Below are positions 1-17,172 of a stretch of DNA of 20,747 bases, piece by piece. The notes below the pieces were generated by a model. That model saw only the letters and a program-made list of their open reading frames with translations. It was not told where the DNA came from and searched no databases. A program made the position numbers and the translations under genes. The number at the start of each line of letters is the position of its first letter. The first letter of the stretch is position 1. The stretch is taken from the IMG/VR virus record IMGVR_UViG_3300003690_000181, positions 1 to 20,747 of that record. One strand, given 5' to 3'. This DNA is from a virus.

Positions 1-1638
1 GGTCACAATAATTATACGGGTAATTTCTCTAATGAAGATTATTGGGACTCATTATCTGTTTCTGATAAGGATATGGGATATGTTAACTATTTTGTGAATA
101 GGGATGGAGTAGTGACCACAGTTTCTGATTCAGGATATACTAAATTCATAGATAGTAAGAAGACTACGGCTGCGGGACATATACCTTATCTTCAGGAGCC
201 TCTCGCTGAAGCTGATTCTCTCTATGAATTACATGATGGACCTGGGGATGCAAGTTCATTTGCTACTTTCCAAGCGGCTGCTGATGCCAGTAGTTTGTTT
301 AACACTATGAGAGAACCGTTCTTTTTATATGTTCCTATGAATGCTCCGCACTCACCTCAAACATTTCCTCCTAGTGGAATGATACACAACTGGGATGGGT
401 TCTACAGTACTAATAATACACAGCATTCAATGGATGTGATCGCAGATGCTGGAAATGATCCAGGTCCTCATGTGGGTGCTATTGCTGCTAGTGGGTCGTG
501 GATGAACTCTACTGCACAAGTAGAGAATATAGACTATATGGTGAGTGCGTTCCTCTCTTCTATTGATCCTGTCAGACGAGATCGCACTATATTTATATTT
601 ATGGGTGATAATGGGGCTGATAAAAATATTATGGAGTCTATGAATACTTATGCTAATGGATTAGCTGGGGTAACTAGTGGATTAGGTCCTGTTTACACGA
701 AATGGCTTGATAATGGTGGTATAACTTATCTAAGTGGAACTAGGCATGGTGGGAACGATAATGGACCTGGGGGATTTAAGACATCAGTATATGAGAGAGG
801 TACAATAGTTCCTTTCATTGTAAGTTCCACAATGATAACAAATAAAAATACTATATCAAACGCTTTTATTGATGGAATTGATTTATATGCTACGATTGCT
901 GAGATTGTTGGTGTAAATAAATCATTAATTTCCAATACTGCGGCCAAGCCTCAACGATATGAGGGTATTTCATTCTTACCAATCTTAAGCGGAGGACCTA
1001 CTCCTAAAAAGAATTTCTCTTTTTCCGAGTTCTTTTCCCCCCAAGGAAACTCTACTGCGTCTGGGACTAGCGTGATGGAGGTAGATGGAGCTATTAATAT
1101 TGAAGGAATGGGTACTTGGACTGGGAAGATAGGGAAGTATGATGGAACCCCCGAAGGATTAGAAACAACAGGTGCTTATGGAGGCTCGGGCAACCCCACT
1201 ATACCTTATGAGCGTAGACGCGCCCTTACAGTAAGTGCTAATGCATACAAACTTGGGCATTTTGCAGTTTCAGGCGCGGATTCTACTGCAATCTATAGCA
1301 GTGTTCCAGAGGTGAGTGCTGGGTCCTGGAAACTGATTAGATCTACAAGTGGTTATCTATATAATTTGTCAGGGTTTGATGAATTATATCACCTAAGACA
1401 GGGAGATGGTACAGACGCAGACCCCTATGAACTTGATAACTTATTATTTCAATATAGAGATCTAGCCGCAGATACTGCGGGTGCTGGTGCAGGGGCTAAA
1501 GATATGCTAACATACTTATTGGATCAAGCAACACAAACAAATGAGGATGATTATTATTGGAGGTTAGCTAGGATATACTACACTCTATTAGACTCTCTCA
1601 ACCAGTATCTAGATCAAAGAAAGGATCCTCTCTCTTAA
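1..1638 (+). CDS. Sulfatase-family enzyme, C-terminal part (5' end outside window)
   Basis: The frame is open from base 1, so the start lies outside the window; 545 residues are visible. It matches the C-terminal half of type I sulfatases (alkaline phosphatase superfamily), which hydrolyse sulfate esters. Motifs in order: NAPHSP (visible residues ~114-119, conserved active-site His); a segment ending GDNG, whose Asp-Asn (codons 607-612) is the usual second metal-ligand pair; GGFK with the conserved Lys (~260) followed by YERGTIVPF; a DGIDLYATIAEIVG helix; and a late ELYHL element typical of sulfatase C-termini. The formylglycine motif CxPxR and the first Asp pair would lie upstream and cannot be checked. 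The stop touches the ATG of gp25, which ties it to the baseplate operon and suggests a virion-borne enzyme acting on host surface glycans. That role is inference; another alkaline-phosphatase-superfamily hydrolase is possible. Confidence 0.85.
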   Translation, partial: GHNNYTGNFSNEDYWDSLSVSDKDMGYVNYFVNRDGVVTTVSDSGYTKFIDSKKTTAAGHIPYLQEPLAEADSLYELHDGPGDASSFATFQAAADASSLFNTMREPFFLYVPMNAPHSPQTFPPSGMIHNWDGFYSTNNTQHSMDVIADAGNDPGPHVGAIAASGSWMNSTAQVENIDYMVSAFLSSIDPVRRDRTIFIFMGDNGADKNIMESMNTYANGLAGVTSGLGPVYTKWLDNGGITYLSGTRHGGNDNGPGGFKTSVYERGTIVPFIVSSTMITNKNTISNAFIDGIDLYATIAEIVGVNKSLISNTAAKPQRYEGISFLPILSGGPTPKKNFSFSEFFSPQGNSTASGTSVMEVDGAINIEGMGTWTGKIGKYDGTPEGLETTGAYGGSGNPTIPYERRRALTVSANAYKLGHFAVSGADSTAIYSSVPEVSAGSWKLIRSTSGYLYNLSGFDELYHLRQGDGTDADPYELDNLLFQYRDLAADTAGAGAGAKDMLTYLLDQATQTNEDDYYWRLARIYYTLLDSLNQYLDQRKDPLS

Positions 1639-2106: not shown

Positions 2107-3716
2107 ATTTTTCTGGGACAATAAGTTCAGATTTTATGAAATTAGCGAGCATTCCGGTGATGAAGCGGCCTTCGTTGATTGATTTCGCGGCGACGGATTT
2201 TATTTCTTTAAGAAATTCGTTAATTAAATATATTAAAGCTGTCTATCCTACAGAGTATAATTATTTTGTTGAATCAGATATAGGTATGATGTTTATAGAG
2301 TTGATAGCTTATATGGGATCTGTAATGTCAATGAAAGCAGACATGTTAGCTAATGAAAATTTCTTCGTAACAGCTAGGCAACGTAGTAGTGTAAAAAAAT
2401 TATTACAATTAATTGGTGTAAAAATGAAGGGGCCTCTTTCCGCTGCGATGGATGCTTCTATAACTTTTGATGATCCTCCTGTGAATATAGGTGGGAATGC
2501 ATATTATACGATAACTCCCTCTAATAGAGTTGTCACTATTGAGTCCCCCCAAGATGGAGGAAGTGTTACATATACTTTGTACAAGGTAGTGAATGGAATT
2601 ATTGATCTGATAAATTCCAGAGGAGATATGCGTCTATATAGTACGGAAAGTGATAATCCAGAAACAGATACGGTGTACACTAATTTAGTGTTACAGGAAG
2701 GAGTACTAGTTACAGATAGTGGAGGTTTTGCGGCTACGGAAGCTATTAAAACAATAAAATTAACGCAGGCTCCTGTAGTTGATGGAAGTGTTGAAGTGTT
2801 TATTAATTCGGTTGATGCAAATGTCTCCGGTGCGTATCGAAAGGTAGAGAATATTTATTTTGCTTCTGGAACTACAGACAGAATTTTTGAGGTACTCTAT
2901 GACGATGACTATCAAGGAACTGTTTTATTTGGAGACGGCACTGTAGGTATTTCTCCAACTGATACAGACGCCTATTTGGTTCATTATCGAGTAGGTGGGG
3001 GATCAAGAGGAAATTTAAATCCAGATGTAATCAATGCTGCTATACAAGCCACAACTAATATAGGAGGAACAGACGCTAGACCTGGAACTATTACCAACAC
3101 AAGTGTTGCAACAGGGGGAGCAAACGCTGAAACTATGGCCCACGCCAAACAATGGGCTCCCTTAACTTTTGCTCGACAGGACAGAGTGGTTACTTTAAAT
3201 GATTACACAGTCTTTGCTAATACATTCATAAGTACTTTTGGAACAGTAGGCAAAGCAGTAGCTGTTACTAGGGATGCTTATTCTTCTGCAAATATTATTG
3301 ATATCTATGTGTTGGAAAAGGCTTCCGATATTCAATTACAAAAAGCTAGTCCTACATTTAAAATTCAATTATTGGATGCTATTAATAGGGTTAAAATGGC
3401 TACAGACGAAGTGTTTGCAGTTGATGGCTTAATTAGAACATTAGATTTAGTAGTTACTATATTTATTGATAAAGAGGATGAAGCGAGAGAGTCTCAGATT
3501 ATTGGATTAGCCAGAAATAAAATATTGAACTATATGAGTATTGATAATAGAAGATTTGGAGAGCCCTTAATAATAGCCGAATTAAACAGACAAATTTTTG
3601 AAGTTAATGAAATTCGGTATTCTGAGATAGATAATTTAGTGCATAATATCTTAGTAGATGAAAATGAAATTATTCAATTGAATAATTTAACGGTGAATGT
3701 GAGTTTACTTGAATAA
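2103..3716 (+). CDS. 6: Baseplate wedge subunit, T4 gp6-like (baseplate J family)
   Basis: A 537-residue protein, shorter than T4 gp6 (660). The N-terminal ~100 residues carry the typical J/gp6 opening: a segment on full-length folding (YNYFVESDIGMMFIELIAYM), then a helix of the MKADMLANENFFVTARQ type and a KKLLQLIGVK element. A beta-rich middle follows, with VLFGDGTVGI and YRVGGGSRGNL (~280-305), which are typical of J-like proteins. The region around APLTFARQDRVVTLNDY (~352-368) is the conserved entry to the C-terminal domain. In T4, gp6 dimers form the inner ring of the baseplate and pair with gp25 and gp7. Order 25-6-(7-like) agrees with this. The start overlaps the gp25 stop as ATGA, with an AGGTGG-like site upstream. 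Confidence 0.93.
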   Translation: MNFSGTISSDFMKLASIPVMKRPSLIDFAATDFISLRNSLIKYIKAVYPTEYNYFVESDIGMMFIELIAYMGSVMSMKADMLANENFFVTARQRSSVKKLLQLIGVKMKGPLSAAMDASITFDDPPVNIGGNAYYTITPSNRVVTIESPQDGGSVTYTLYKVVNGIIDLINSRGDMRLYSTESDNPETDTVYTNLVLQEGVLVTDSGGFAATEAIKTIKLTQAPVVDGSVEVFINSVDANVSGAYRKVENIYFASGTTDRIFEVLYDDDYQGTVLFGDGTVGISPTDTDAYLVHYRVGGGSRGNLNPDVINAAIQATTNIGGTDARPGTITNTSVATGGANAETMAHAKQWAPLTFARQDRVVTLNDYTVFANTFISTFGTVGKAVAVTRDAYSSANIIDIYVLEKASDIQLQKASPTFKIQLLDAINRVKMATDEVFAVDGLIRTLDLVVTIFIDKEDEARESQIIGLARNKILNYMSIDNRRFGEPLIIAELNRQIFEVNEIRYSEIDNLVHNILVDENEIIQLNNLTVNVSLLE

Positions 3717-6700
3717 TGAAAAGTAAATTTACTCCCAACCCACGAACTTATACAAAAAGAAATTTTGTTGAGTTAATTGAATTGATTACTCCTGGAGTAT
3801 ACCAGGAGGAAGATTTAGCATTGAGTGGGAGAGAGATAAATCCAGCTTCAAGAATTATAAATACTCATTTAGTAGCGGCTAATAATATCTCCCAGGTACT
3901 ATCCATCTCGGCTGTAGCTAATTCGCAAACTTCTAGTTTAAATAATATTTCAGGTATCTCTCAATTTTTTATTAAACAAAATAATCTTACCAATATTACG
4001 CCTTACAGTTTTGAAACTAAAATACTTTTACCTTTGGGACTTTCTTTTAAGGATTTTAATACAAGCGGAGAGTACAATACTTATTTATCTGGAACTTTAT
4101 TGCCCCAAATAATTCTGGCTACTGGATCGGAGCCTGGAGCTTTACGCCAAAATATTTCTACACTATCTGCTCTAACTACTGATAATAATCCCAGTAGCGT
4201 TCATAATTATTTGGTGGACACTTTAGGTTGGATGTACTTTTTGAATACATCAGCGGACGGGGGTTTAACATATAGCCCCTCTAGTTTTGTACTAGAATCA
4301 TTAAACACATTATATTTAGGAAAGAGTCTAACTACTGTCGATGGAATTAGAGGCTTTGACACCTACTTGTGGAAAAATTACTCTACATGTACTACTTTCA
4401 CTAATCTAAGTCTTATTCCAGCAGACTTTGTATCAGGAGCAGCCGATTCTATTCTTACTCCTAGTGCTGGGGTTGTAGCTACATGGACAAGTGGAACTCA
4501 AAAATTAGATAACTTATTAACTTGGTTAGATGTAATCTATTCGCCTGCTTATATGGATCAACAGGATTTTAAAGTACAGCAAGCTTTTAATGATTATATT
4601 GACGCTGCGCTTTCATTAACCGATCTTGTATCTAAGGGTCCTTTTAGAAAATTTATTGATGCTTTTGGGTTTCAAGCGGCTGATATTACCGAACAAATTG
4701 AATCAATAGGATTGTTGTATGATATTGAAAATTGTCCTGAGGAATATTTACAATTTCTTGCAGACCTAATTGGATGGAAATTGTATGGAGCCTCTACCTC
4801 TAAGTGGAGACACCAACTACGAACAGCAGTAGATTTATACAAGAGAAAAGGAACATTAGATTCAATTCAATACGCTTTGAATACTCTCGTAACTAACTCT
4901 GTTTTAGATGTTTCGGGGCGTGTAGCAGAATTATGGGAATCGTATATACCCTTCCTTATTTGGTATAGTTTAGGTACAGAGTCTCCCTACTTCCGGGATT
5001 TAACTACTTGGACACAAGGATTAGCCACAGACGCAGGAGTTTACTATTACAATCCTAGTAGTATAGAAGAAAATTTAAAAATTGTAACCGACTCAATCAT
5101 CTTAGATTTATATAAGAAATTTCCTGATAACTTTCTGTATCTTGGAGAAAAATTTCCTGTAAATAGGATGTATACGCTGGATGATAGAGGGTGCCCCTCT
5201 AGTGTTTATACTATAATTAATGAATCTCATATGAAACCTTTTCATATGCATTCTGTAGATAGTCCTGGGTATCAGGTCTTTAAACGGGAAGCTATGATAT
5301 TGGGAAAAGGTGATGCATGGAATGCGGCCCATTGTGATGGTCCTTTAGGGACTGGTGTGTATATGGCAGCTTTAGAGCATCCTCAGGGAGGTGAGGAACC
5401 CATTTACTTATCAGCCACGGGTGATTTAGAGTTCTTATTTAATTATAGAACCTATACTAATTATCCTCTCCCCCCATTTGAACAGATAAAATATTATAGA
5501 GACAGTTCTCTTACCCCTGCGTTAGCTGCTTACCTTAAAGAAAAGTTGGCTTGTTTTGGAGTAAGGAGAGAATTTTGTACTGATGTAGAAGATTTTATCC
5601 TGAGTGCAGGAATTAATACTGACACAAACTTAGGGAGTCTTAATGAATTTTTGATGTTCTTTAGTGCAGTACAAACTCCTCCTAATTATGATAATGTATT
5701 ATATAATATATCAGAATCTCATAATAATCTTTTGAGTTTGTGGAATGGAAAATCATCTCATATATTTATTGATTTTGATAATACAGATTTTGATTTTGCT
5801 AAAACTACGTTGGATGGAGACTCTAAGTATGCTTTATATGAAGCTTCTAGGGTAGCAACTAATTTTTCGCCCGCTCACACCATAGCTAGAATCAATTTAA
5901 ATGCTAGTGCTATGGACTATGCGGATTATTCTAGTACACGTTGGAGTTATTTAGGGTTTGATAAAGATGATACGAGAGTAAGTTATACAAGTGCTTCTGT
6001 CTTAGCTGGCTTTGAATGGAGCGGTTTGGATATGGGAGCTATACTAACCGCTGGGGGTGGGGACTCCAATTTAGATGGGGATGCTGGTAGAGGGGGTTTA
6101 AATACTTTTAAACGGGCTGATGTAGATAATATCGTAGGGGACGTACTCTTTAATAAGAAGACTCCTATTGTTGCTGATTTAAGCTCAGTATCACGGACAG
6201 CGTTGCGAAGACGTAATTTTCGCTATACTTTGCCCACAGAGGGATATTATCATCGAACAGGATTTAATGCTCCTAATAGTTGGGATCCATCCACCTTGGA
6301 ATATTCTATGCCTTCTTCTGTAGGAGAATTTACTCTGGGATATGTGGCTTCCGCAGGTAAGTTTTTTCCTATTGTAGATCCAATAAATCCCTCAGGGGTG
6401 TGGGATAAATGTGAGGGTCTAAGTTCCACTCGTTCATTCTCAGCTATTTATACAAGTGCTACATTCCCTTATAGGGGACTAAGAGTTCTTGGTTCTAATG
6501 CTAAGTGGGATGAAATTGAAGTCTCTACAGCACGTTATGTAGATCGAGGTCAAACCCCCCATATTTATATTGTAATGCATGAGTTATTGGAAGAGAAAGC
6601 CCGCGATTTAGCTAGAACAGTTTCTTCTATTACTGTGGATACCTACTGGAAAAATGAAATTCAGAGTTATGCCAATAGTGCTATAGCTAGTGGGTATGTT

Positions 6701-8257
6701 TTTAATTCAGATACCGAGTATAGAAATTTTAGTTTCGGTATTGGTATTCAAAAATTATACAAAGATTATGCACATTATTTTAAAAGACATTTTTTGAGTA
6801 GAAATGATACGGATGATACTGGGGGGAATATTTTTGGACAAGTTTTTGGAGATGGGTTATATAATGATAACTTTTCTGTCGAGGGTTCTGCGGTAGAAAC
6901 AACGGCAGGGGATTATGTTGCCTCTAGCTTTGCTTCAGGACTTGCAATAAATCAAAACGCTGGCTCTGGAGTTTTTAGTACATGTGCTGTAGCAGCATAT
7001 AGTGATGGAAGTAATGATCTACCAGCATCAGGTACTTATATCGCCAGTGCAACAGGAGATTTAGTAGTTCCTTTATCAGGTACGCAATTTATACAAGAAG
7101 CGGTATACAATGCTGAGTTTAGAAATCCACATATTCTAAGTGGTGTGGAATTCTGTGATACGTCAGGTTCTCCATCCGAGAATGCGTTCTATGTATTTAA
7201 AGCTGATCCAAGTTTTAAAGTTCCTGGAGCCGAAAATTATTTAATAGATAATACAATTATTAAATGCAAAACCGCAGGGGGATTTCCTAGATTACGTTTT
7301 GATTTATCAGCTTATGGGAAGAGAAGAAATTATTTCATCAAGGATCATAAATTCAAACTGAAAATTAAAGCTTTAGTAGCTGAAGAAAATTCGCCAATAT
7401 TGGGAGGAGGCCAATTAGGAGTGTGGATTCATACTAATCCTATTTATGATGCTTCTGCTCCTAGTGGTGCAATGTGGTCTTGGACGCCTGAAGGAAAGTG
7501 GACATTACATAACGCTACTAATATAAGTTTACCCACAGTCTTAGGTTCATACGCACATATCCACACATACGATCTCAAGACTACAGAATCTACAGAAGAA
7601 GAGGTAATTTATTGTTTAGGAAATACTAGCGAATCTACTCAGGAGTCGGTAATTAATAATGTTTCATTAAATAATATTTTGGAAGGATATTTTGAGACTT
7701 ATGAATTAAATTTTGATACTCGAAATTATACTATCTATAATAATTATGAATACTTAAAGATTATCCCCGTACCTGAGGAATATTATAGATTTGAACAGAC
7801 GGTGAATAGAGATGATACTAATTACTATGTAGAAATATTTTTCTTACCTCCCACTAATCCAGGCAAGTATTTGTTGATTGATTCTATTTCTTTAGAGGAT
7901 AGTACACAGCGAGACAATGCAGGGTTAGGAACAGATCATGGAATTCAAACAAGTGGAATACCTTTAAGGAAATTTGTAAAGGAAGATAAACTGTATTTAA
8001 ATAAAGAACAAGTAAGGACTGTTTTAAAATTCTTTACTGGATTGGCAGGTAAAGGATACGGATTGTATAAAACTAGCTTGGCTAGTAGAGATTTCAGAAT
8101 AGGTCCAAATGCGAATGACACATATGGTATTTTATATGGCAATGATTTAGGGCCTGCTGGGGGTAGTAGATTAAATTATCGTATACATCCCTTGTGGGGA
8201 GATGGAAGTACTAAACGAGGAAATAATAGTTTTGAAAACATAATAGTGGATAATTAA
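3716..8257 (+). CDS. Large baseplate wedge protein with P2 gpI / T4 gp7-like domain and C-terminal extension
   Basis: A 1513-residue protein, larger than T4 gp7 (about 1030). At residues ~330-420 it has a P2 tail protein I-type domain: a CPEEYLQFLADLIGWK segment (~340), basic helices, then KRKGTLDSIQYALN (~375-390). This is the CPxxLLPxLA ... R ... KGT pattern of the family. P2 gpI and T4 gp7 are functional equivalents that pair with gp6/J, so position after gp6 supports a wedge role. Residues ~430-1060 are unassigned. From ~1080 on the sequence is beta-rich, and around 1250 it has a Trp-rich MWSWTPEGKW element, suggestive of a beta-sandwich binding module. It starts in a TAATG overlap and its stop abuts the next ATG. 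The gpI-type domain is well supported; the gp7 name is by synteny. Confidence 0.8.
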   Translation: MKSKFTPNPRTYTKRNFVELIELITPGVYQEEDLALSGREINPASRIINTHLVAANNISQVLSISAVANSQTSSLNNISGISQFFIKQNNLTNITPYSFETKILLPLGLSFKDFNTSGEYNTYLSGTLLPQIILATGSEPGALRQNISTLSALTTDNNPSSVHNYLVDTLGWMYFLNTSADGGLTYSPSSFVLESLNTLYLGKSLTTVDGIRGFDTYLWKNYSTCTTFTNLSLIPADFVSGAADSILTPSAGVVATWTSGTQKLDNLLTWLDVIYSPAYMDQQDFKVQQAFNDYIDAALSLTDLVSKGPFRKFIDAFGFQAADITEQIESIGLLYDIENCPEEYLQFLADLIGWKLYGASTSKWRHQLRTAVDLYKRKGTLDSIQYALNTLVTNSVLDVSGRVAELWESYIPFLIWYSLGTESPYFRDLTTWTQGLATDAGVYYYNPSSIEENLKIVTDSIILDLYKKFPDNFLYLGEKFPVNRMYTLDDRGCPSSVYTIINESHMKPFHMHSVDSPGYQVFKREAMILGKGDAWNAAHCDGPLGTGVYMAALEHPQGGEEPIYLSATGDLEFLFNYRTYTNYPLPPFEQIKYYRDSSLTPALAAYLKEKLACFGVRREFCTDVEDFILSAGINTDTNLGSLNEFLMFFSAVQTPPNYDNVLYNISESHNNLLSLWNGKSSHIFIDFDNTDFDFAKTTLDGDSKYALYEASRVATNFSPAHTIARINLNASAMDYADYSSTRWSYLGFDKDDTRVSYTSASVLAGFEWSGLDMGAILTAGGGDSNLDGDAGRGGLNTFKRADVDNIVGDVLFNKKTPIVADLSSVSRTALRRRNFRYTLPTEGYYHRTGFNAPNSWDPSTLEYSMPSSVGEFTLGYVASAGKFFPIVDPINPSGVWDKCEGLSSTRSFSAIYTSATFPYRGLRVLGSNAKWDEIEVSTARYVDRGQTPHIYIVMHELLEEKARDLARTVSSITVDTYWKNEIQSYANSAIASGYVFNSDTEYRNFSFGIGIQKLYKDYAHYFKRHFLSRNDTDDTGGNIFGQVFGDGLYNDNFSVEGSAVETTAGDYVASSFASGLAINQNAGSGVFSTCAVAAYSDGSNDLPASGTYIASATGDLVVPLSGTQFIQEAVYNAEFRNPHILSGVEFCDTSGSPSENAFYVFKADPSFKVPGAENYLIDNTIIKCKTAGGFPRLRFDLSAYGKRRNYFIKDHKFKLKIKALVAEENSPILGGGQLGVWIHTNPIYDASAPSGAMWSWTPEGKWTLHNATNISLPTVLGSYAHIHTYDLKTTESTEEEVIYCLGNTSESTQESVINNVSLNNILEGYFETYELNFDTRNYTIYNNYEYLKIIPVPEEYYRFEQTVNRDDTNYYVEIFFLPPTNPGKYLLIDSISLEDSTQRDNAGLGTDHGIQTSGIPLRKFVKEDKLYLNKEQVRTVLKFFTGLAGKGYGLYKTSLASRDFRIGPNANDTYGILYGNDLGPAGGSRLNYRIHPLWGDGSTKRGNNSFENIIVDN

Positions 8258-9376
8258 ATGAGAGGATCAGTAGGAGTATATTATAAAGACAAGCTTATTT
8301 ACGAAGAGACAAATCTTCTTGTAAATGGGGCAGGTTCTTTATTAGCTGATATTATGACAGTCTCCCCCTCCCTATCGGGGGTGCCTGATCATGCTACTTC
8401 TTCTATTTTAGACTCCTCTAATTATACTATTCAGGCTGTATCGTTTGGAACAGCGCAAAGTGCGTACATGAAAAATGCTCATATTTATACAGAGCCTAAA
8501 GTTTATCTACTTTCTTCCGTATTTGGGGGCACCTCTTCAGTTATAGATGTAATTCGACATAGAGAACCTGGGATTGCTGAGGCTCTCACCGTAAGTTCTT
8601 ATTCTCCCACTAGTCTTCTTCCTCATTATTCTGACCCCAACCTTCCTACTTTAGAAGTAAGCAGCGATGTATCAGCAGTTGTTAGTGGTATAGCTTTAAG
8701 TTCTATAGTACCTGGAAACGGACAAAATTTAAATTTAATACCTTCGGCATATCATCATGCTGTATTTATTAATACTGCTTTATCTTCTTTATCGGCTGTC
8801 GGGGGGGCTATTTTAGGATGCTGGCCTGAGGGAAGTGGGGGCTCAACGGCACCCGGATCGGTGGGGGGAACTGATTTTTCCGCATTTAGTGGAACATCTC
8901 TATCCGCTCCTGAGGATGTAGCCTATTCAGGTACATACAATGGAATGTTTAATGCAGCCAGTTCTATGGATACTTCTGGTTTTGTAAATATGATTATGTC
9001 CGCATCCCCAAATCATGCAGACGCATATTTAATGAGTAGTACAACTAGTGGTTTATGCGTGTCAGGAGGAACCGACACGGGTAATTCTGGAACAGTCGAA
9101 TATTCCGTTACTATAGGTGCAGGAGATTTAGGTGGAGCTAATTTGTACGGGGGTATATATAATATGGGATTATGGACAATAGATATGGATAAATCTCTTC
9201 TTGCAGGAAATACTCCTCCTTATTCGTTTGATACCCTAAATAATCCTAGAAAGTATAGATTGTTTGCTGTGAAATCATTTAGTAGAAATATAGCTAGAGT
9301 GACAGATTCAGGGGTTGATGCAGGTTGTATAAATTATGGAGATTGTTTAATTAAGTGGAGAATACACTTCCTATGA
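8258..9376 (+). CDS. Baseplate/fibre-associated structural protein, paralogue of the next gene
   Basis: A 372-residue protein I cannot place in a named family. The N-terminus (~1-35) has a GVYYKDKLIYEETNLLVNGAG pattern: a short beta-hairpin, then an N-x-(hydrophobic)-V-x-G-x-G turn. The C-terminus (~305-372) has YNMGLW, then FAVKSFSRNI and a final IKWRIHFL strand. The same two ends recur in the protein that follows, so both are probably variants of one fold; the middle here (~100-300) is Ser/Gly/Thr-rich and differs. Similar C-terminal pairs of N-x-(V/M)-GL(F/W) and a terminal W-x-(h)-x-F strand occur in phage tail and fibre proteins. The ATG abuts the preceding TAA; a run of seven G lies at 8801-8807. 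Confidence 0.75.
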   Translation: MRGSVGVYYKDKLIYEETNLLVNGAGSLLADIMTVSPSLSGVPDHATSSILDSSNYTIQAVSFGTAQSAYMKNAHIYTEPKVYLLSSVFGGTSSVIDVIRHREPGIAEALTVSSYSPTSLLPHYSDPNLPTLEVSSDVSAVVSGIALSSIVPGNGQNLNLIPSAYHHAVFINTALSSLSAVGGAILGCWPEGSGGSTAPGSVGGTDFSAFSGTSLSAPEDVAYSGTYNGMFNAASSMDTSGFVNMIMSASPNHADAYLMSSTTSGLCVSGGTDTGNSGTVEYSVTIGAGDLGGANLYGGIYNMGLWTIDMDKSLLAGNTPPYSFDTLNNPRKYRLFAVKSFSRNIARVTDSGVDAGCINYGDCLIKWRIHFL

Positions 9377-9975
9377 GAAATTTTATAGATGATTTAGGGA
9401 TTAATGGACATTTAACCATCATTAAAAAATATAATGACGGTGAAGAAGAGATAGTATTTGATGATCATAATGTTATCGTATCAGGAATGGGTGTAGGATT
9501 AGCCTATTTATTTACAGGATCCGGTTCAAATGTCATTACGGACTATCAAATAGATAGATTTCAAGTAGGAGTATCGGGGGCTACCTCCCTAGAGCTAAGT
9601 ACAACTAATTCGTTGTCAGGGGGCTTAAATTATTCTGAGTATGGAAATGGTAGTAATTTATTTATTGAAGAATGTACTCAAATCGTAGGTAATATAGATT
9701 TGACTCCATCAGCATTTGCTCTTATTCCTGCAAATAAAGTTACAAGAATAGGAGATAATGCTGTGAGATATACCCTAGTAGTAGATGAGGAATCTTGTAA
9801 TGGTTTAGCGGGACAGAGTGGGGAGGATGAATATTTAAATGAAGTAGGTTTATTTATGAAGAATCCTAGGGGGGCTACGGTCAATGCTTCTCTTTTAGTG
9901 GCTTATAGAGCTTTTAGTATTATTCGAAAAACTAATGATTTTAGTTTAATTTTCAGATGGACACTTAATTTCTAA
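9373..9975 (+). CDS. Small baseplate/fibre-associated structural protein
   Basis: A 200-residue protein. I chose ATG 9373, which overlaps the previous stop as ATGA like other junctions here; an in-frame GTG at 9355 would add six residues. From ~10 to 45 it has a polar hairpin, then HNVIVSGMGVGLAYLF. Near the C-terminus it has LNEVGLF, LVAYRAFSII and the closing strand IFRWTLNF. Both ends match the preceding 372-residue protein in order and spacing, which suggests gene duplication followed by loss or gain of the middle. No enzymatic motif is seen. The compact size and place between the wedge proteins and the large fibre suggest a connector or cap, but this is inference. Confidence 0.78.
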   Translation: MRNFIDDLGINGHLTIIKKYNDGEEEIVFDDHNVIVSGMGVGLAYLFTGSGSNVITDYQIDRFQVGVSGATSLELSTTNSLSGGLNYSEYGNGSNLFIEECTQIVGNIDLTPSAFALIPANKVTRIGDNAVRYTLVVDEESCNGLAGQSGEDEYLNEVGLFMKNPRGATVNASLLVAYRAFSIIRKTNDFSLIFRWTLNF

Positions 9976-12900
9976 TGGTATTTAATCGGAACGATATTTA
10001 TACAAGCAGCGGCAGCGTAATGTTATATAATTCTTGGACTCCTTATGTGTCCAAGTTTGATACTAGTTCATTCTATAATTGGGAACAAGATAACCTACCT
10101 CTCTATGATTTAGAAGAACGTACTTATGAAATGTGGGAGCATGGAGGATTTCCCACTTCTTCAATTACTGGGCTTGCATTAACTGTGTCGGCTGATACGC
10201 CTACAGCTACTCTTCAAGCAAATTCAACTATCTTTACTAGTGTTAGTTCCTGCATTGCTGCTATCCCAAAGGTTGTTCGTTTTCCTGTCTTAATTGAGGT
10301 TTGTAATTTTGGAAATATGGGTCCTTTAGAGCTACATAATTTTCGAATGGAAGAAGGAGGCTCTATTGAAATTATAAATAGAGCATACGGAAGATCCTTA
10401 AATGGTTCTGCAACGGTCACATCAAAAGTTAGCCCTGCTAACATGACGCACAACCAATCGCATGCTATCCTGACTCAAATTGCGGACGCTAACTTAAGTG
10501 CTATTTTATGTTCTGGTCTTACTAATACATCTACATGGGGAGGGGTGCGTACTTCGGGAGTTCATATTGCTACACCTGTTTTTGGGCCTAAAAATTCGAC
10601 CGTATTTAGAACAGATGGAGAACCTAGAGCTAGTGCTATAAATTCATTTTACTATATAGATTCTACTTTAAGAAGAAGTCCGTTAGCAGTTAGTCTTTAC
10701 GAGAGTACTGTGTTTAGTCCTACAACTAATTTTAATTTTAAAGTTAGACCCTACGAGAAGAGAGCCGCAGCCATTGGATCAAATGATGATTCTATGGGAG
10801 TTGCCGATGTAAGTGCTGCTGATCCGTATATTCCTGGTGATCTTTTACAGCGAAATTCCGCTGATGTATTAGATAAAGTAAGTGGGGGCATGTACATGAA
10901 CAACTGTAGTAAGATAAGTGTGCAAAATTGCGACGGCCCTATTTATATAAGAAATTTTATAGTTGATGGATCAAGCCAAGCAGCTAATTCAGGTCAGGAA
11001 GTAGGCATTCATATTGTTAATTCAGATGTAGTGTTAGAAAACTGTGGGGCTGTTAGATGTAGGGACGCAGGGTTTAAATTTAATAACTCAAAAGTAATGT
11101 TATCAAGATCAGCTTTTGCATATAGAGCCTATGATTTATCTTCTACCACAGGCAGGGTTCCTGAAAAAGGAGTTGGATTTCATGCTATAAATAGTGATGT
11201 ATCAATTAGTGCCTTAATTGGAGCAACTAGTGAAAATCAATGGAGGTACGGTAATGGAGGTAATTGGGAATCTTCTGGGAATGATGTAGTAATTTGTGCT
11301 TCCAGAAATTATATAGGAATGAAGCTAGATAACTCCAGGCTTACTGGAGGGTTCCAAAGGTCCTTCGCAGGGCAGGAGGAGAGTGGAGGAACTGTAGCTC
11401 TAGAATTGAATACAGGCTACGGATTACAGGCTAATAATTCGCATATAGATTTAAAAGGTTTATTAGATGTATATGAGAATGAAGACGGGATTCAGCTAAA
11501 TAATTCTTATATGAGGTATGAGCAGCTTTGTGTAGGAAGAAATAATGGAAAAGGATTTGCTAGTAATAACTCTACTGCTATTTGGGATTCTAATGTTGAG
11601 GGTTTTGAACAGAGTTCTCGTAGACAACTTGATTTTTCAGGAAACGGTCAACATATAAATTTAGAAAATCAAAGTACATTTACATTCAAAAAGAGAAATC
11701 ATATTCCTGAACTATATGGAAATACTTTTATTGTCTCTGCGGTGGGGAGAGAGGCGGGCTTACCTCAACCTGCTTTACCTGCAATTTCTGTTTCTCATAA
11801 TTCACAAGCTGATTTTCTAAATTTAAAATTCCTTACTCGCGCTCCTACTCATATGCTTAGTAATATGCCTCAGTATGGTTTAGGAATCGTTGTAGATAAA
11901 AATTCAGATGTAGATTTTTATGGAACAAAAGAGGGTGCTACATTTATTTTAGGTCCTGATTCTTATGCTACACAACACTACGTAGCAGGAGTATATGCTG
12001 ATAATAATTCCACAGTAGGATTTCATGGTCCTACATTTATTGGGAGATTTGGAGTAGATGTTTTAGCTAATAATAATTCTACAATAAATATCACTCCTCC
12101 ACGCATAGGGAATTCCTTTCTTGCAGACTCTAGTTCTTTTGATTTAAGTGCCGCGTTGAATCAGACTTCCGTTGAACTTCATTCAACCAGAGCTTGTTTA
12201 GTAGCCAATAAAAATTCTACTATTAATCTAGAGAACTTAGGATCATTTGATAACTACTGGACTAGGAGTGCTCAGGGAGTTACGGCTTTAACTGCGGGGA
12301 CAGATTATCGGCAAACATATGGAGCCGATAGTGATGGTCTAAGTGCTACTATTGGGTACGGTTCCCTACAATTCTTCCCTAATCCTCAAAATTCGCAAGC
12401 AGTAACGCAGGCCAAAACTGATAGTTTAATACTACTTGCTATTGATACTACGGCTCAAGCCACTCCTATTTTTACATTTAAGACTAACGGTAATCAGTTT
12501 TTAATTAGTAATGATTGGTTCATTAATGGAGGGGGGTGGGCTGCTGCTATGGCTCAAGCTTCTTATGGTGGAGTATGTGTTAGAGCCGTTGAAGATAGTG
12601 TTGTAAATGTTACAAATGTTTGCTTCCCTGTAGGAACTAACACTAGTCCTTTGGACGGACCTTATTACGATGTTAGTGCAACTGAATGTGATAGGTTAAT
12701 GATTTGGAATATTGCTGATACTTCTAGATTAAATGCAGCTTATTGTAGTGTAAGTGGAATGTATCCTGCTGATGTTGGCTATCACGGTCCTAGCGCGGTA
12801 TGGGCGTCGGCGCAGGATGTGGATACTGGCCCCCCTGTTGTTGGAACTGGAGAAACTCCAGCCTCTGGTGCCCCTTCTTCGACCCCAGATACAGGTGTCT

Positions 12901-13694
12901 TGAGTGTACTTGATGCTTTTGGGGCTGGGAGTTCTGTGTGGGCAATTACTTCTGGTACTACTATTAATATGCCCTTTAAACGAATCGGTTTGGGGGGTTG
13001 GGCTGGGGACGGTGCAGTGGGTGCGGGTGGAGGGGGAGGTACTTTAGATCCTTCCTTCGCAACAGATGCAGGTATAGCGGTCTCGGGGGGAGGTTCAGAT
13101 ACTTTCGGTAGAGTAAGCCCAGGAATCTTTGGGGCAGGTATTGAGTCTTATAAGAATCAGGGAGTATTTAGATTATATTTCTCGCCTAAATCTGAAGTAA
13201 AATTATTGCAGAATGATATGAGTGGCTGGCTTCATGGAAGTTATAATGTTGTCGCAGGGAGAACTTTTTCGGGTGTGGTAGGACCCGCGTATCAGGTCTT
13301 TGCTCAGGGATATAATATGTCAGCTAACTTATCGGCAGTAGTTCCTGAGGGGTATCTGAATGCGAGTTCATTTTATCCCAATCTATTAAAACTTAGTATA
13401 GATTCACAAGGTTGTCGAGTATTTGATAAATTATGGACTTCCGGCTTCTATTACTGTAGTGAATTTGTGGAAGATAATCCAACTCAATGTATGTTGGATG
13501 AATCGGCTGCTAACACTTTTGCTAATGCTAAGAATGCCTCATTAGGAATGTCAGGGAAGCCGCGTAAAGTAACTCTTTATCGAGCTAGATCTGACTCAGC
13601 AGCCAACCAAGGGGCAGAAGCTTATGAAGGTGATGTTTTAGCAACGCAGGGATTTAAATCTGCTAACATATTTGATTTAAAGAGAGATAACTAA
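9975..13694 (+). CDS. Tail fibre/spike protein with right-handed beta-helix region
   Basis: A 1239-residue protein. Residues 1-60 hold a short module with YNWEQDNLPLYDLEER, also found in the next protein and possibly an attachment segment. Residues ~320-760 are a long repetitive stretch with thirteen x-N-S elements (mostly NNS, at about 349, 371, 406, 453, 488, 510, 532, 566, 609, 643, 678, 701 and 747), each followed by alternating hydrophobic residues. This is typical of a parallel beta-helix with stacked Asn at a turn, as in phage tailspikes and pectate-lyase-like folds. I see no clear catalytic set. The C-terminal ~480 residues include a Gly-rich stretch (~1004-1025) and a beta-rich tail. 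The likely role is host binding, perhaps glycan binding or cleavage. It starts in a TAATG overlap and ends in another. Confidence 0.8.
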   Translation: MVFNRNDIYTSSGSVMLYNSWTPYVSKFDTSSFYNWEQDNLPLYDLEERTYEMWEHGGFPTSSITGLALTVSADTPTATLQANSTIFTSVSSCIAAIPKVVRFPVLIEVCNFGNMGPLELHNFRMEEGGSIEIINRAYGRSLNGSATVTSKVSPANMTHNQSHAILTQIADANLSAILCSGLTNTSTWGGVRTSGVHIATPVFGPKNSTVFRTDGEPRASAINSFYYIDSTLRRSPLAVSLYESTVFSPTTNFNFKVRPYEKRAAAIGSNDDSMGVADVSAADPYIPGDLLQRNSADVLDKVSGGMYMNNCSKISVQNCDGPIYIRNFIVDGSSQAANSGQEVGIHIVNSDVVLENCGAVRCRDAGFKFNNSKVMLSRSAFAYRAYDLSSTTGRVPEKGVGFHAINSDVSISALIGATSENQWRYGNGGNWESSGNDVVICASRNYIGMKLDNSRLTGGFQRSFAGQEESGGTVALELNTGYGLQANNSHIDLKGLLDVYENEDGIQLNNSYMRYEQLCVGRNNGKGFASNNSTAIWDSNVEGFEQSSRRQLDFSGNGQHINLENQSTFTFKKRNHIPELYGNTFIVSAVGREAGLPQPALPAISVSHNSQADFLNLKFLTRAPTHMLSNMPQYGLGIVVDKNSDVDFYGTKEGATFILGPDSYATQHYVAGVYADNNSTVGFHGPTFIGRFGVDVLANNNSTINITPPRIGNSFLADSSSFDLSAALNQTSVELHSTRACLVANKNSTINLENLGSFDNYWTRSAQGVTALTAGTDYRQTYGADSDGLSATIGYGSLQFFPNPQNSQAVTQAKTDSLILLAIDTTAQATPIFTFKTNGNQFLISNDWFINGGGWAAAMAQASYGGVCVRAVEDSVVNVTNVCFPVGTNTSPLDGPYYDVSATECDRLMIWNIADTSRLNAAYCSVSGMYPADVGYHGPSAVWASAQDVDTGPPVVGTGETPASGAPSSTPDTGVLSVLDAFGAGSSVWAITSGTTINMPFKRIGLGGWAGDGAVGAGGGGGTLDPSFATDAGIAVSGGGSDTFGRVSPGIFGAGIESYKNQGVFRLYFSPKSEVKLLQNDMSGWLHGSYNVVAGRTFSGVVGPAYQVFAQGYNMSANLSAVVPEGYLNASSFYPNLLKLSIDSQGCRVFDKLWTSGFYYCSEFVEDNPTQCMLDESAANTFANAKNASLGMSGKPRKVTLYRARSDSAANQGAEAYEGDVLATQGFKSANIFDLKRDN

Positions 13695-14416
13695 TGGCTG
13701 AACCGATTTATGGAGATAGTGTTTTTAGGTTTACTGATCCTCTTCGTTATTTTAAAGCGAATGATCCTTACTATTTTGAAGTGGATAACATCCCTCTTAA
13801 GCAGTTACAGGAAAACTGTCTATGGCTAAAGGATCAGCTTACTAAAAGTACGCAGGGTTCATTAGGGGTGAAGAGAGGGGATTTAGATGAACTTCGCCCT
13901 TACGCAAATGGAGGAGATAGAGTTCTTAGAGTAAAACCAGGAAGGTTTACCGCTAGAATTAATGACGCTTCCACTAAGGAACCTCTCCAATTTTTGAATA
14001 AAGTATTCGGGATTGGCGGCCAGGGTTGGGGTACAGGAGGAGGGGGTCCTAATACCTTTCCTGAATATATGCATAGAGTTTCTGCTTGGGAAGCCGCTAT
14101 GGGGAGTCCTGGATCTTGGCCTGACCACGAAGATCCTAGTTGGAATACCATACTATATAATTCTTTAGAAAAATTTAAAAGTAATTTAGCACAAGATGCT
14201 TTGGGTATGACAGGTCTAGTCGAGCGCGTGTTTACATGGCCCACTAGGGGGGCAGGGATGCCCATTGATGGGAGTGGGGTGCCCTATGCAATCTCAGGTG
14301 GACGGTTGACCTACATGGGCCCGGAAAATCCAGCCCTTCATGAGGTACATCGTCTTCCTCTGATAGCTACTGAAGCTTTATTGTGGGCTCAGAGTGATTT
14401 ACAGAAAACCAATTGA
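13694..14416 (+). CDS. Virion structural protein sharing N-terminal motif with the fibre
   Basis: A 240-residue protein I do not recognise by name. Residues 19-50 contain YFKANDPYYFEVDNIPLKQL followed by an ENCLWLKDQL helix, which parallels the DNLPLYDLEE module at residues 33-55 of the upstream fibre. A second element, RGDLDELRPYANGGDRVLRV followed by KPGRFTARIND (~62-92), resembles beta-strands seen in baseplate and fibre adaptors. The middle is Gly/Pro-rich (GGQGWGTGGGGPN). Its stop overlaps the TTG start of the next gene as TTGA. The two genes may have arisen by splitting one long protein, since this one lacks an obvious closing domain. It is probably a peripheral baseplate component. Confidence 0.72.
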   Translation: MAEPIYGDSVFRFTDPLRYFKANDPYYFEVDNIPLKQLQENCLWLKDQLTKSTQGSLGVKRGDLDELRPYANGGDRVLRVKPGRFTARINDASTKEPLQFLNKVFGIGGQGWGTGGGGPNTFPEYMHRVSAWEAAMGSPGSWPDHEDPSWNTILYNSLEKFKSNLAQDALGMTGLVERVFTWPTRGAGMPIDGSGVPYAISGGRLTYMGPENPALHEVHRLPLIATEALLWAQSDLQKTN

Positions 14417-16209
14417 TAAAAAGGTGGAGGGGAATAACAAGAAATGCAATAGTAGATGTACCTGATGAGATTACTGTTCAGGTTCCTCTATTTGATTCTA
14501 CAGATTTTGATTATATTGACGAAGATGGCAACGAGCAATCTGTTGCTGGAGTACAAAGTAGGATTGATATGGTCTTTATTTATAGTAAACCTGTAGATGC
14601 TAGTGGTATAAAATACGTTCAAGGAACTGCTATACACGGTACTACCACTCCTATATTAGGTATTGTGCGTGGTGCAGGAATTAAAATGAAGTATGACCCA
14701 ATAACTAATATAAATCAGTATTGGCATGTAAGGGCCACAGACTCTGCGGGTAATACCCAAATACTGGCTGCGCCTGGTGATGTTAACGATACTAACCTAG
14801 GATTTACATCTACATCAGCTAATGACATAGCGTATGATATTAGAGGTTCCTTCCCTTCTCCTGATGATATTTTAAATATTGCTCCTCTTATTGAGGAACG
14901 CCTTGTTGATAGTGCTATAGAATTGGTGGGTCAATCTATTTTACCTGTAGCATATGTGTGGGTACAAGCAGATTCTAGTTTAGTAGCTACTACAGATATT
15001 ATTGATATTAGACCACTTTTTAGAACTGCGGAATTATCTTATAATGAGAGAGCCGGAATTGCTGCGGCTGTACCTCAAATATCTCTAGCTAACCCTGTTT
15101 GCAGTTTATCTCTAATGGAGAACAGGTCTAAGAATTTATTTAATTATTTTACTACTCAAATAGAACAATCAGCCCCGTCCGTACATACAACCCGAACTGT
15201 AGCAGCAGGGTATATATTTGGAGGATGGAATTTTGGGCCTGAGGGGGCGCTATACGATTTTGAGTTTAAAAACTCAAGTGAAGAACCCAGAGATCCTATT
15301 ACTGGGTCTGATTTAAATATAGGGGCTACAAATCCAGTAGTTAGAAATACTTTAGCCAATAAGTATCATTTCGGAGGAGGTGATATTGATAATGTTCCCG
15401 ATTACCCCGACTGGGAGATTGGAGAGTGGACAAGTATGGCAGAAAATAATCTTACAGATGTAGGATACTATCCTGTTGACTATACCACTCCATATATGTC
15501 TTTACGACACGCATTCGGATTTGGTGAGGACGGAGATCCCTCTATAGTTGGTGGTTCTATATCTGGTCGTGCAGCGGCAGGTTACTCAGGGGCTAGATTA
15601 AAAAATACATTTAACACCGAAAACGGACCCACAGACATAATTTCAAGAACATTCTTTAATTATTGTAAGAAAAGAATTAATTTTATTAAACCTAGTTGGT
15701 TGTTAGATTATTCGATAGATGTGGAACTTGTTAATTGTGTAGGACAAAATTATAATGGTGCGCGGTCACAAAGTAACTCTGTTGATTGGGCTAAAGCAGG
15801 AACTTATTTTGGTTGTTGGGTAGAGAAGGGGAAGGATTATTTTATTATTTATTACGCTTGGAATGGTGACGAAATAAATGCGCGGTGGGGGCCAATATCG
15901 AGGTATCATATTCAAGTTCCTATAGAAGGGACAGATGGTGTAATATATACAGAACGAACAACTGATTATGCATCAGAAGCATATGCTGGCGGTTTCTTGG
16001 TTCCTGTTCAGGATATTCTTGAGAGTAATACTGACAAAATGCGTCCTTCAGAAGATGGTATAGGGGGCTATATGGGAAATCCTAGAGTAGGTAAGTGTAG
16101 TCTACCTACTGTTTCGTGGAAAATGACAGCCGTGGGGGTAGATGATGCTGCCTTCTTATACACTAATTTAAATAACAATGATCCTACTATTACTCTAAAT
16201 GGCGCGTAA
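14413..16209 (+). CDS. Virion structural protein, unrecognised
   Basis: A 598-residue protein. The only plausible start is TTG 14413, inside a TTGA overlap; the frame has a stop at 14395-14397 and no nearby ATG or GTG. No good ribosome site is visible, so expression probably depends on translation of the preceding gene. The N-terminal ~100 residues are beta-rich (VPDEITVQVPLFDSTDFDYI, then RIDMVFIYSKPVD and PILGIVRGAGI). Residues ~155-200 include a helical EERLVDSAIELVGQSILPVAYVW type segment. The rest is rich in Gly, Asn, Tyr and Trp with no recognised motif; a GCWVEKGKDYFIIYYAWNGD element lies at ~474-493. Location between the fibre genes and the Ser-Glu protein argues for a tail or baseplate surface role. 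Confidence 0.7.
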   Translation: MIKRWRGITRNAIVDVPDEITVQVPLFDSTDFDYIDEDGNEQSVAGVQSRIDMVFIYSKPVDASGIKYVQGTAIHGTTTPILGIVRGAGIKMKYDPITNINQYWHVRATDSAGNTQILAAPGDVNDTNLGFTSTSANDIAYDIRGSFPSPDDILNIAPLIEERLVDSAIELVGQSILPVAYVWVQADSSLVATTDIIDIRPLFRTAELSYNERAGIAAAVPQISLANPVCSLSLMENRSKNLFNYFTTQIEQSAPSVHTTRTVAAGYIFGGWNFGPEGALYDFEFKNSSEEPRDPITGSDLNIGATNPVVRNTLANKYHFGGGDIDNVPDYPDWEIGEWTSMAENNLTDVGYYPVDYTTPYMSLRHAFGFGEDGDPSIVGGSISGRAAAGYSGARLKNTFNTENGPTDIISRTFFNYCKKRINFIKPSWLLDYSIDVELVNCVGQNYNGARSQSNSVDWAKAGTYFGCWVEKGKDYFIIYYAWNGDEINARWGPISRYHIQVPIEGTDGVIYTERTTDYASEAYAGGFLVPVQDILESNTDKMRPSEDGIGGYMGNPRVGKCSLPTVSWKMTAVGVDDAAFLYTNLNNNDPTITLNGA

Positions 16210-16212
16210 GAA

Positions 16213-17172
16213 ATGGGTTTTGAATGCGGACAACTTTTACCTGGAACAGGCTCCTTAGGAAACTTTCCTGATTATCCTTTGCCTGGAATGGGGGGGCAAC
16301 CAGGCCCAGATGGAGGAGGCGGCGGGCCTGGTCCTGGCACTGGATCGAGTTCCTCTTCAGAGGATACCCCTCCACCTGGAAACGGCTCATCATCCGAGTC
16401 AGAGTCTGAATCCGAGTCATCATCATCCGAGTCTGAATCTGAATCTGAATCCGAATCTGAATCCGAATCTGAATCAGAACCCCCTCCTACATATTGTAGG
16501 TGTGCAATAGGAGAATTGATCAGTTACACTGAGACAGGGGAACCAGGGTGTATTTTCAAACGATGGATTTTTGAACAAAATTGTGAAAATGAGGCTGATG
16601 GGGTTCCTGATAGTCAGGATTATATTGATGCGTTTAACGAAGCTATTACCATGAGCATGAACGATGGGGGCGGTTATAGTCAAACTCCTGCACACCAAGA
16701 TTGCCCGTCCGACTCTGACTCCGATAATTTGTGTTGTCAAGATTCTGATGGAGGCACTCCTTTTCCTGGAGGTGGTGCATCCAACCGCTGTTGTAAGAAT
16801 GTAATTTTAACTGCTTGGGAGGAGGAGGACTGTAGTTCTTCACAGTCAGAATCAGAATCTGAATCTGAATCTGAATCAGAATCAGGATCTGAAGAACCTC
16901 CCACTCCTAACCTGACTGGGGGAAAGATGTTTCCCAATGTGGGAAAATTAATTATACGCGGGAGGGGAGGCTCTATTTTAAACTTAACTGATCCTAGAAT
17001 TGAAGCATACATTAGATCTAAGGCTCCAACAGGATTGATTGATCCTCGTTTAATGGTGGACCCATCTATTTCAAATAGAAATGCAGCCTTTATACGAAAT
17101 CCAAAACGTAATGACCCTATTTTTGGAGTAAAAATACATCCAAGTATTGATAGTATACCGTCTTTGATTTAA
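16213..17172 (+). CDS. Ser-Glu-repeat, Cys-rich virion-associated protein
   Basis: A 319-residue protein of mosaic, low-complexity composition. Residues ~1-58 are Gly/Pro-rich with a Ser patch. Two (Ser-Glu)n tracts follow, at about 59-89 and 208-228. Between them is a module with ten Cys (starting CRC, with two CC pairs), an even number compatible with disulfides or metal binding. The last ~90 residues are not repetitive and look like an ordinary folded domain (PNVGKLIIRGRGGSILNL to KRNDPIFGVKIHPSID). Codon choice in this frame matches neighbouring phage genes, which supports it as the real frame over shadow frames. It begins three bases after the upstream stop. The end sits at an unusual junction with the next gene (see 17154-17315). 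The function is unknown; a surface decoration or fibre linker is possible. Confidence 0.75.
   Translation: MGFECGQLLPGTGSLGNFPDYPLPGMGGQPGPDGGGGGPGPGTGSSSSSEDTPPPGNGSSSESESESESSSSESESESESESESESESEPPPTYCRCAIGELISYTETGEPGCIFKRWIFEQNCENEADGVPDSQDYIDAFNEAITMSMNDGGGYSQTPAHQDCPSDSDSDNLCCQDSDGGTPFPGGGASNRCCKNVILTAWEEEDCSSSQSESESESESESESGSEEPPTPNLTGGKMFPNVGKLIIRGRGGSILNLTDPRIEAYIRSKAPTGLIDPRLMVDPSISNRNAAFIRNPKRNDPIFGVKIHPSIDSIPSLI
16387..16479 (+). repeat. First Ser-Glu codon repeat tract
   Basis: Near-perfect six-base repeats of the form TCN-GAR (mostly tct-gaa, tcc-gaa and tcc-gag), with two short Ser-only interruptions. It encodes an alternating Ser-Glu linker. Synonymous variation between units suggests selection on the protein rather than very recent expansion. 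Confidence 0.9.
16834..16896 (+). repeat. Second Ser-Glu codon repeat tract
   Basis: Six-base TCN-GAR repeats again, closing the Cys-rich core on its C-terminal side. It is close enough in sequence to the first tract (about 350 bases upstream) that recombination between them could delete the Cys-rich module. Confidence 0.88.

Follow-up and report, generated by a model that had tools for sequence, protein, structure and literature searches.

A putative formylglycine-type sulfatase encoded as a module of baseplate-operon proteins in uncultured T4-like phages

The window, by which we mean the entire 20,747-base IMG/VR fragment analysed here, opens inside a sulfatase gene whose own 5' part can therefore not be read, and continues into phage baseplate genes. 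The features to which the text refers are the following.

1..1638, + strand: putative sulfatase module, the C-terminal 545 residues of a fusion between a LamG protein and a sulfatase (PF00884, 47.6 bits; full-length relative at L002:6476-11659; 5' end cut by the contig end)
1639..2106, + strand: gp25-like baseplate wedge protein (PF04965, 42.3 bits; phrog_261), its first base directly following the sulfatase stop codon
2103..3716, + strand: gp6-like baseplate wedge protein (phrog_219, E 3e-33)
3716..8257, + strand: long tail protein with a Tail_P2_I (gpI-like) segment (PF09684, 26.3 bits)
9355..9975, + strand: 206-aa operon protein (phrog_5417), an extra copy of which bears the sulfatase in six related contigs

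The first of these is a 545-codon ORF, open at its 5' end, in a frame next to which each of the other five contains 28-64 stops. It matches the Pfam family Sulfatase over profile positions 88-301, well above the cut-off of 25 bits, and its His (nt 349-351), Asp-Asn (607-612) and Lys (778-780) align with H211, D317, N318 and K375 of the Pseudomonas aeruginosa arylsulfatase, whose catalytic residue numbers were partly checked on the 1hdh alignment. The initial annotation had described a sulfatase-family enzyme with these residues intact, a description that both the profile match and the alignment support. It had also placed the end of the sulfatase exactly at the start of baseplate gene 25, and indeed the stop codon TAA occupies 1636-1638 and the ATG of the next gene, recognized as gp25 by Pfam and by PHROGs, follows at 1639 with no gap between. 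As the window alone covers four of the ten catalytic residues, the other six are known from relatives; taken together, the alignments identify positions 1-1638 as the C-terminal two thirds of a predicted S1 (formylglycine-type) sulfatase and not as a separate gene.

The missing part is found on IMG/VR contig 3300006736_000116 (L002/L003), which runs colinear with the window for 8.4 kb (94% DNA identity). There the frame runs on upstream without a stop to give an ORF of 1727 aa. Its first ~930 residues make up a structural protein with a LamG-like jelly roll at the end, and the remainder is a whole sulfatase, carrying 'LIISDDVGVDNLG', 'VCSPTRAAILTGKH' and 'GKWHL' and complete with CSPTR, the first Asp pair and all other catalytic residues. 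Since this frame is continuous from the structural protein into the sulfatase, the window ORF constitutes the final part of a fusion protein. The fusion is preceded by a gp53-like gene, by a long gene that has no assignment but occupies the hub position, and by a spike gene with a weak resemblance to gp5, and is followed by gp25, gp6 and the gpI-like gene. LamG protein and sulfatase share single ORFs of 1683-1760 aa in several contigs, and co-encoding with a tail structural protein, be it the LamG or the 206-aa protein, is seen as single ORFs inside the spike-gp25-gp6 gene order. Thus, of the earlier proposal of a sulfatase gene within a baseplate operon the operon setting stands, whereas the stand-alone gene does not, the relatives showing it to be the C-terminal part of a far longer structural protein. 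The tie to the tail proteins, with which the enzyme was suggested to be produced, is closer than had been supposed, because the sulfatase is covalently joined to a baseplate-operon protein.

The formylglycine motif and the first Asp pair, which the initial annotation proposed to look for upstream, lie beyond the reach of the window and are present in the 94%-identical relative and in every copy that covers them. The maturation motif CxPxR/SxPxR (PROSITE PS00523 pattern) reads C[ST]P[ST]R wherever a copy covers the site. All phage sulfatase copies are of the Cys type, and most of them contain both sulfatase signatures. The PF00884 scores of the longer copies (97.9 bits for L002, 101.9 for L024 and 86.8 for L025) all exceed the cut-off as well. 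All ten catalytic and metal-binding positions are present and invariant wherever they are covered, as compared to 14% invariant columns overall; besides the Cys they comprise an Arg, two Lys and two His, aligned to R55, K113, H115, H211 and K375 of 1hdh, and the four metal ligands Asp, Asp, Asp and Asn, of which the Asp-Asn pair lies in the window itself. This invariance is retained even though identity among some of the copies drops to 36-40%. In close pairs the dN/dS of the sulfatase is 0.21-0.31, next to 0.10-0.24 for the neighbouring gp25, gp6 and 1513-aa genes. An AlphaFold model of the sulfatase, built from seven sequences only, reached a pLDDT of 28 and was too poor to use; as the prediction failed for lack of alignment depth, the catalytic case rests on sequence, and in those terms the sulfatase is shown to be fused, to have an intact catalytic site and to be under purifying selection.

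These data bear on what we regard as the strongest rival explanation, an unlikely one nonetheless, that the sulfatase fold serves as a binding domain, a receptor-binding part that stays unmatured and holds a sulfated glycan without cutting it. The glycan-binding fold of the LamG-like neighbour domain would suit such a role, as would the lack of a recognizable FGE or anSME gene on the family contigs searched, yet binding by itself is not expected to keep a maturation motif, and the Cys, the Arg, both Lys, both His and every metal ligand are invariant. A very improbable further alternative is an active formylglycine hydrolase with another target, for example a phosphonate monoester or a phosphodiester. 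Phosphonate monoester hydrolases are matured at CxPxR too, and one of them, 4upk, is among the weaker matches of a profile of 13 phage domains searched against the PDB; in that search, however, the top matches are all sulfatases, S1 enzymes ranking first with 93.8 bits for 7stt and 87.6 bits for 1hdh, and the best matches likewise place the domain with the S1 sulfatases when the other branches of the superfamily are considered, a check that the initial annotation had raised. Moreover, the metal ligand pair that is Asp-His in phosphonate monoester hydrolases is Asp-Asn in all phage copies, as in sulfatases.

This sulfatase was found in 17 contigs, the window counted, which were gathered by searching with the full protein and sulfatase profiles and by matching a DNA pattern of the maturation motif, and some of which share their source populations. 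Thirteen IMG/VR stretches match the motif pattern C[ST]P[ST]RAx(I/M)LTG, and all but one of them (12/13) belong to this phage sulfatase family. In 11 of the 17 contigs the sulfatase is carried by the LamG protein just before gp25, and in the other six (L024, L025, L121, L123, L125 and L145) by an extra copy of the 206-aa protein, farther downstream. We call this copy extra since a plain 206-aa gene lies beyond the fused one in all four contigs that can be read downstream (G013, G014, G018 and L145). Where the LamG position is readable in contigs with the 206-aa fusion (G013, G014, G018 and G020), it holds a LamG gene without sulfatase, split by a break in G013, with gp25 next to it. Hence related phages carry the same module on one or the other of two baseplate-operon proteins, and each phage seen has a single sulfatase, at either of two positions in an operon that is otherwise conserved.

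The LamG protein without sulfatase is far commoner, with 355 relatives counted and 80 kept, and at more than 80 other loci it is followed directly by gp25. All sulfatase-less copies examined end 0-2 residues past the aligned LamG end with gp25 immediately next, the exception being a locus that itself ends at that point. The eight sulfatase-bearing LamG proteins placed in the tree group together in a single clade (SH-aLRT 99, one change), from which we infer that the module was probably gained once on the LamG scaffold and then kept through wide divergence. Whether the module was transferred between the scaffolds or gained separately is not resolved by the tree (bootstrap about 50).

The recurrence of the junction also disposes of an assembly chimera or contamination, in which a bacterial sulfatase would have been joined to a phage gene. 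The window does start inside the gene, and a near-identical contig (L124/G019) is frameshifted in the fusion gene, but the same junction is present in 11 contigs with a vertical tree, a parallel junction is present in six others, and no close cellular homologue was found that could have served as contaminant; we consider this explanation refuted by the independent contigs. The frameshifted gene (G019:35402-40728) is broken within its sulfatase part, and as the near-identical copy in G016 is intact, the break is probably an assembly error. In two of the 206-aa fusions, L024:3841-8412 and G018:4110-8705 (L123), ~450 residues of unassigned type lie between the 206-aa-like part and the sulfatase. 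By eye (GNGFGS) we considered an alpha/beta-hydrolase domain there, an idea that neither Pfam nor a PDB sequence search supported.

The LamG protein without sulfatase was modelled from 50 sequences at middling confidence (pLDDT 57). In the model the N-terminus and a long middle part are helical, and the C-terminal part forms a beta domain. Among viral structures the model matches LamG/concanavalin-like proteins best, one of them being a virion structural protein of cyanophage S-PM2. The PDB matches are headed by jelly-roll subdomains of clostridial toxins at low TM-scores, which we read as a shared predicted fold and nothing further; the Pfam match to Laminin_G_3 is weak and under the cut-off. 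The jelly roll is thus, by structure comparison at low TM-scores, what the scaffold has in common with the LamG/concanavalin-like proteins of T4-like marine phages such as Q5GQW3 of S-PM2, from which it differs in the long helical segments that precede the jelly roll and, within one clade, in the sulfatase that follows it. The place of the scaffold in the virion is inferred from gene order.

Two long contigs of 67 kb (3300003690_000011) and 64 kb (3300025131_000033) carry terminase, portal, major capsid protein, sheath, tube and baseplate genes in the same order, genes that were labelled by position and sequence appearance unless tested with Pfam or PHROGs. The best isolate matches of the terminase share 31-34% identity with it; among them are Flavobacterium phage immuto, Microcystis phage Mel-JY01 and a 595-kb uncultured phage. 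The carriers of the sulfatase are uncultured T4-like (T4-type) myophages. No tRNA was found in them and no cultured relative exceeds about 34% in the terminase, so the host cannot be assigned. Bacterial FGE works in the cytoplasm, where tail proteins are made. Neither FGE (PF03781) nor anSME (TIGR03942) was detected on the family contigs searched, all of them fragments of 6-67 kb, which is consistent with the dependence on a host maturase put forward in the initial annotation; as the contigs are fragmentary, a maturase encoded elsewhere by the phage is not excluded, and a host enzyme is merely the simpler reading.

The single FGE match of the maturase search falls on contig 3300009545_000018 (447,763 bases, G022), which is unrelated to the fusion family, is classed as viral and carries, together with the FGE-like gene, a stand-alone sulfatase (L120). 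This sulfatase and another stand-alone one, L104, match phrog_19870, a PHROGs family of unknown function with 459 positions, the length of a sulfatase, and we suggest that phrog_19870 is probably a sulfatase family. The stand-alone enzymes of the virus collection have the sulfatase fold as well and, unlike the phage fusions, the L120 ORF has no tail protein attached.

A collection of 50,697 phage records dated 2025 yielded no true homologue of the fused sulfatase, and tblastn of the window's sulfatase part against isolated phages gave no match. The full protein matched, among isolated phages, only records named 'Acinetobacter phage MD-2021a', and the one that was read (L107) is bacterial chromosome (fadH, tRNA-Ser, oprD). 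Most of the other sulfatase matches among phage records fell in unannotated faecal clones, Salmonella contigs and Campylobacter phage records marked UNVERIFIED; two such contexts were read, one resembling an enterobacterial region and the other a Bacteroides-type polysaccharide locus. The sulfatase regions of CAKLQF020000021, MG065691 and MT835657, deposited as phage, resemble bacterial chromosome, and these records could misguide the annotation of phage sulfatases. A genome scan gave no cellular homologue of the LamG protein and, for the sulfatase, three distant lone sulfatases of 29% identity at best that did not usefully root the tree. A virion sulfatase was not found in the literature, for which open-access papers only were searched, the joint matches for sulfatase and phage being FGE-type domains, remarks in reviews and bacterial enzymes. 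Virion-borne enzymes that modify glycans are in general already known; a formylglycine sulfatase fused to baseplate-operon proteins is new among the phage records and open-access literature searched, the absence of a report being no proof.

The reading that we favour, and hold to be probable, is that of a sulfatase carried on the virion and directed at sulfated surface glycans, in which presence in the virion, maturation by the host, hydrolysis of sulfate esters, the substrate and the step of entry are all inferred. We propose that in these T4-type myophages the gene between the central spike and gp25 encodes a tail-tip protein with a LamG-like jelly roll, and that one clade would have gained a full S1 sulfatase as a C-terminal module of this protein. 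The fusion would form part of the baseplate or of its appendages, a location inferred from gene order and fusion without proteomic or biochemical data. In the host cytoplasm, before the domain folds, a host maturase would turn the active-site Cys of C(S/T)P(S/T)R into formylglycine, which is assumed in the absence of a maturase on the contigs and of a known host. At adsorption the tethered enzyme may then strip the sulfate esters off a sulfated glycan that the host cell bears or is surrounded by, and desulfation would expose a receptor or clear the path of the tail.

The enzyme could instead be active in the virion and aimed at the surroundings, loosening the sulfated polysaccharide of algae or particles and so giving phages access to hosts within gels or aggregates. 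To this we give only little weight, although the closest solved enzymes include polysaccharide sulfatases (e.g. kappa-carrageenan S1_16 and S1_15), since no evidence separates it from action at the host surface; as the profile scores are scattered over many S1 subfamilies, no subfamily or substrate can be assigned to the phage sulfatase.

With S1 (type I, formylglycine-dependent) sulfatases such as 1hdh, 7stt (N-acetylgalactosamine-6-sulfatase) and the S1_15/S1_16 polysaccharide sulfatases 9bau and 9fo1, the phage enzyme shares its Pfam family and all ten catalytic and metal-binding residues, and yet those are separate secreted enzymes whereas this one is a C-terminal module of ~795 residues with long insertions on a structural protein. 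Phage tail depolymerases and tail-borne glycan esterases are known kinds of tail enzyme, and they are likewise enzymes on a tail protein with host surface glycans as the presumed target. The tail enzymes of phages known to us so far cut or deacetylate host polysaccharides, in contrast to which the phage sulfatase would take off sulfate and would need a residue made after translation. A desulfating tail-tip enzyme, if true, would be a new entry chemistry and would suggest sulfated coats as barriers to phages or as their receptors; it would also be a virion enzyme with a post-translationally installed catalytic group, making the maturase status of the host a testable limit of host range. A further-reaching idea, on which our confidence is evenly balanced, holds that the catalytic residue of a tail-tip enzyme is absent from the encoded protein and must be installed by the host maturase, that infectivity is thereby tied to sulfatase activation in the host, and that the module moved between, or was separately gained on, two baseplate scaffolds. 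As sulfated polysaccharides are important in marine carbon storage, a particle-borne sulfatase would be of ecological and enzymological interest.

Several other genes of the window deserve mention. A 1239-aa protein at 9975-13694, with many repeated Asn-Asn-Ser motifs and no match in Pfam or PHROGs, is possibly a right-handed beta-helix fibre. The ORFs at 13694-14416 and 14413-16209 (240 and 598 aa) correspond to one ORF of 817-929 aa in three related contigs, and the frame break near 14398 is perhaps an assembly indel. Similarly, the ORFs at 16213-17172 and 17316-18737 (319 and 473 aa), with a break near 17166, form one ORF of 951-1061 aa in relatives, and the presumed structural protein at 16213-17172 contains long Ser-Glu repeat tracts (SESESESE).
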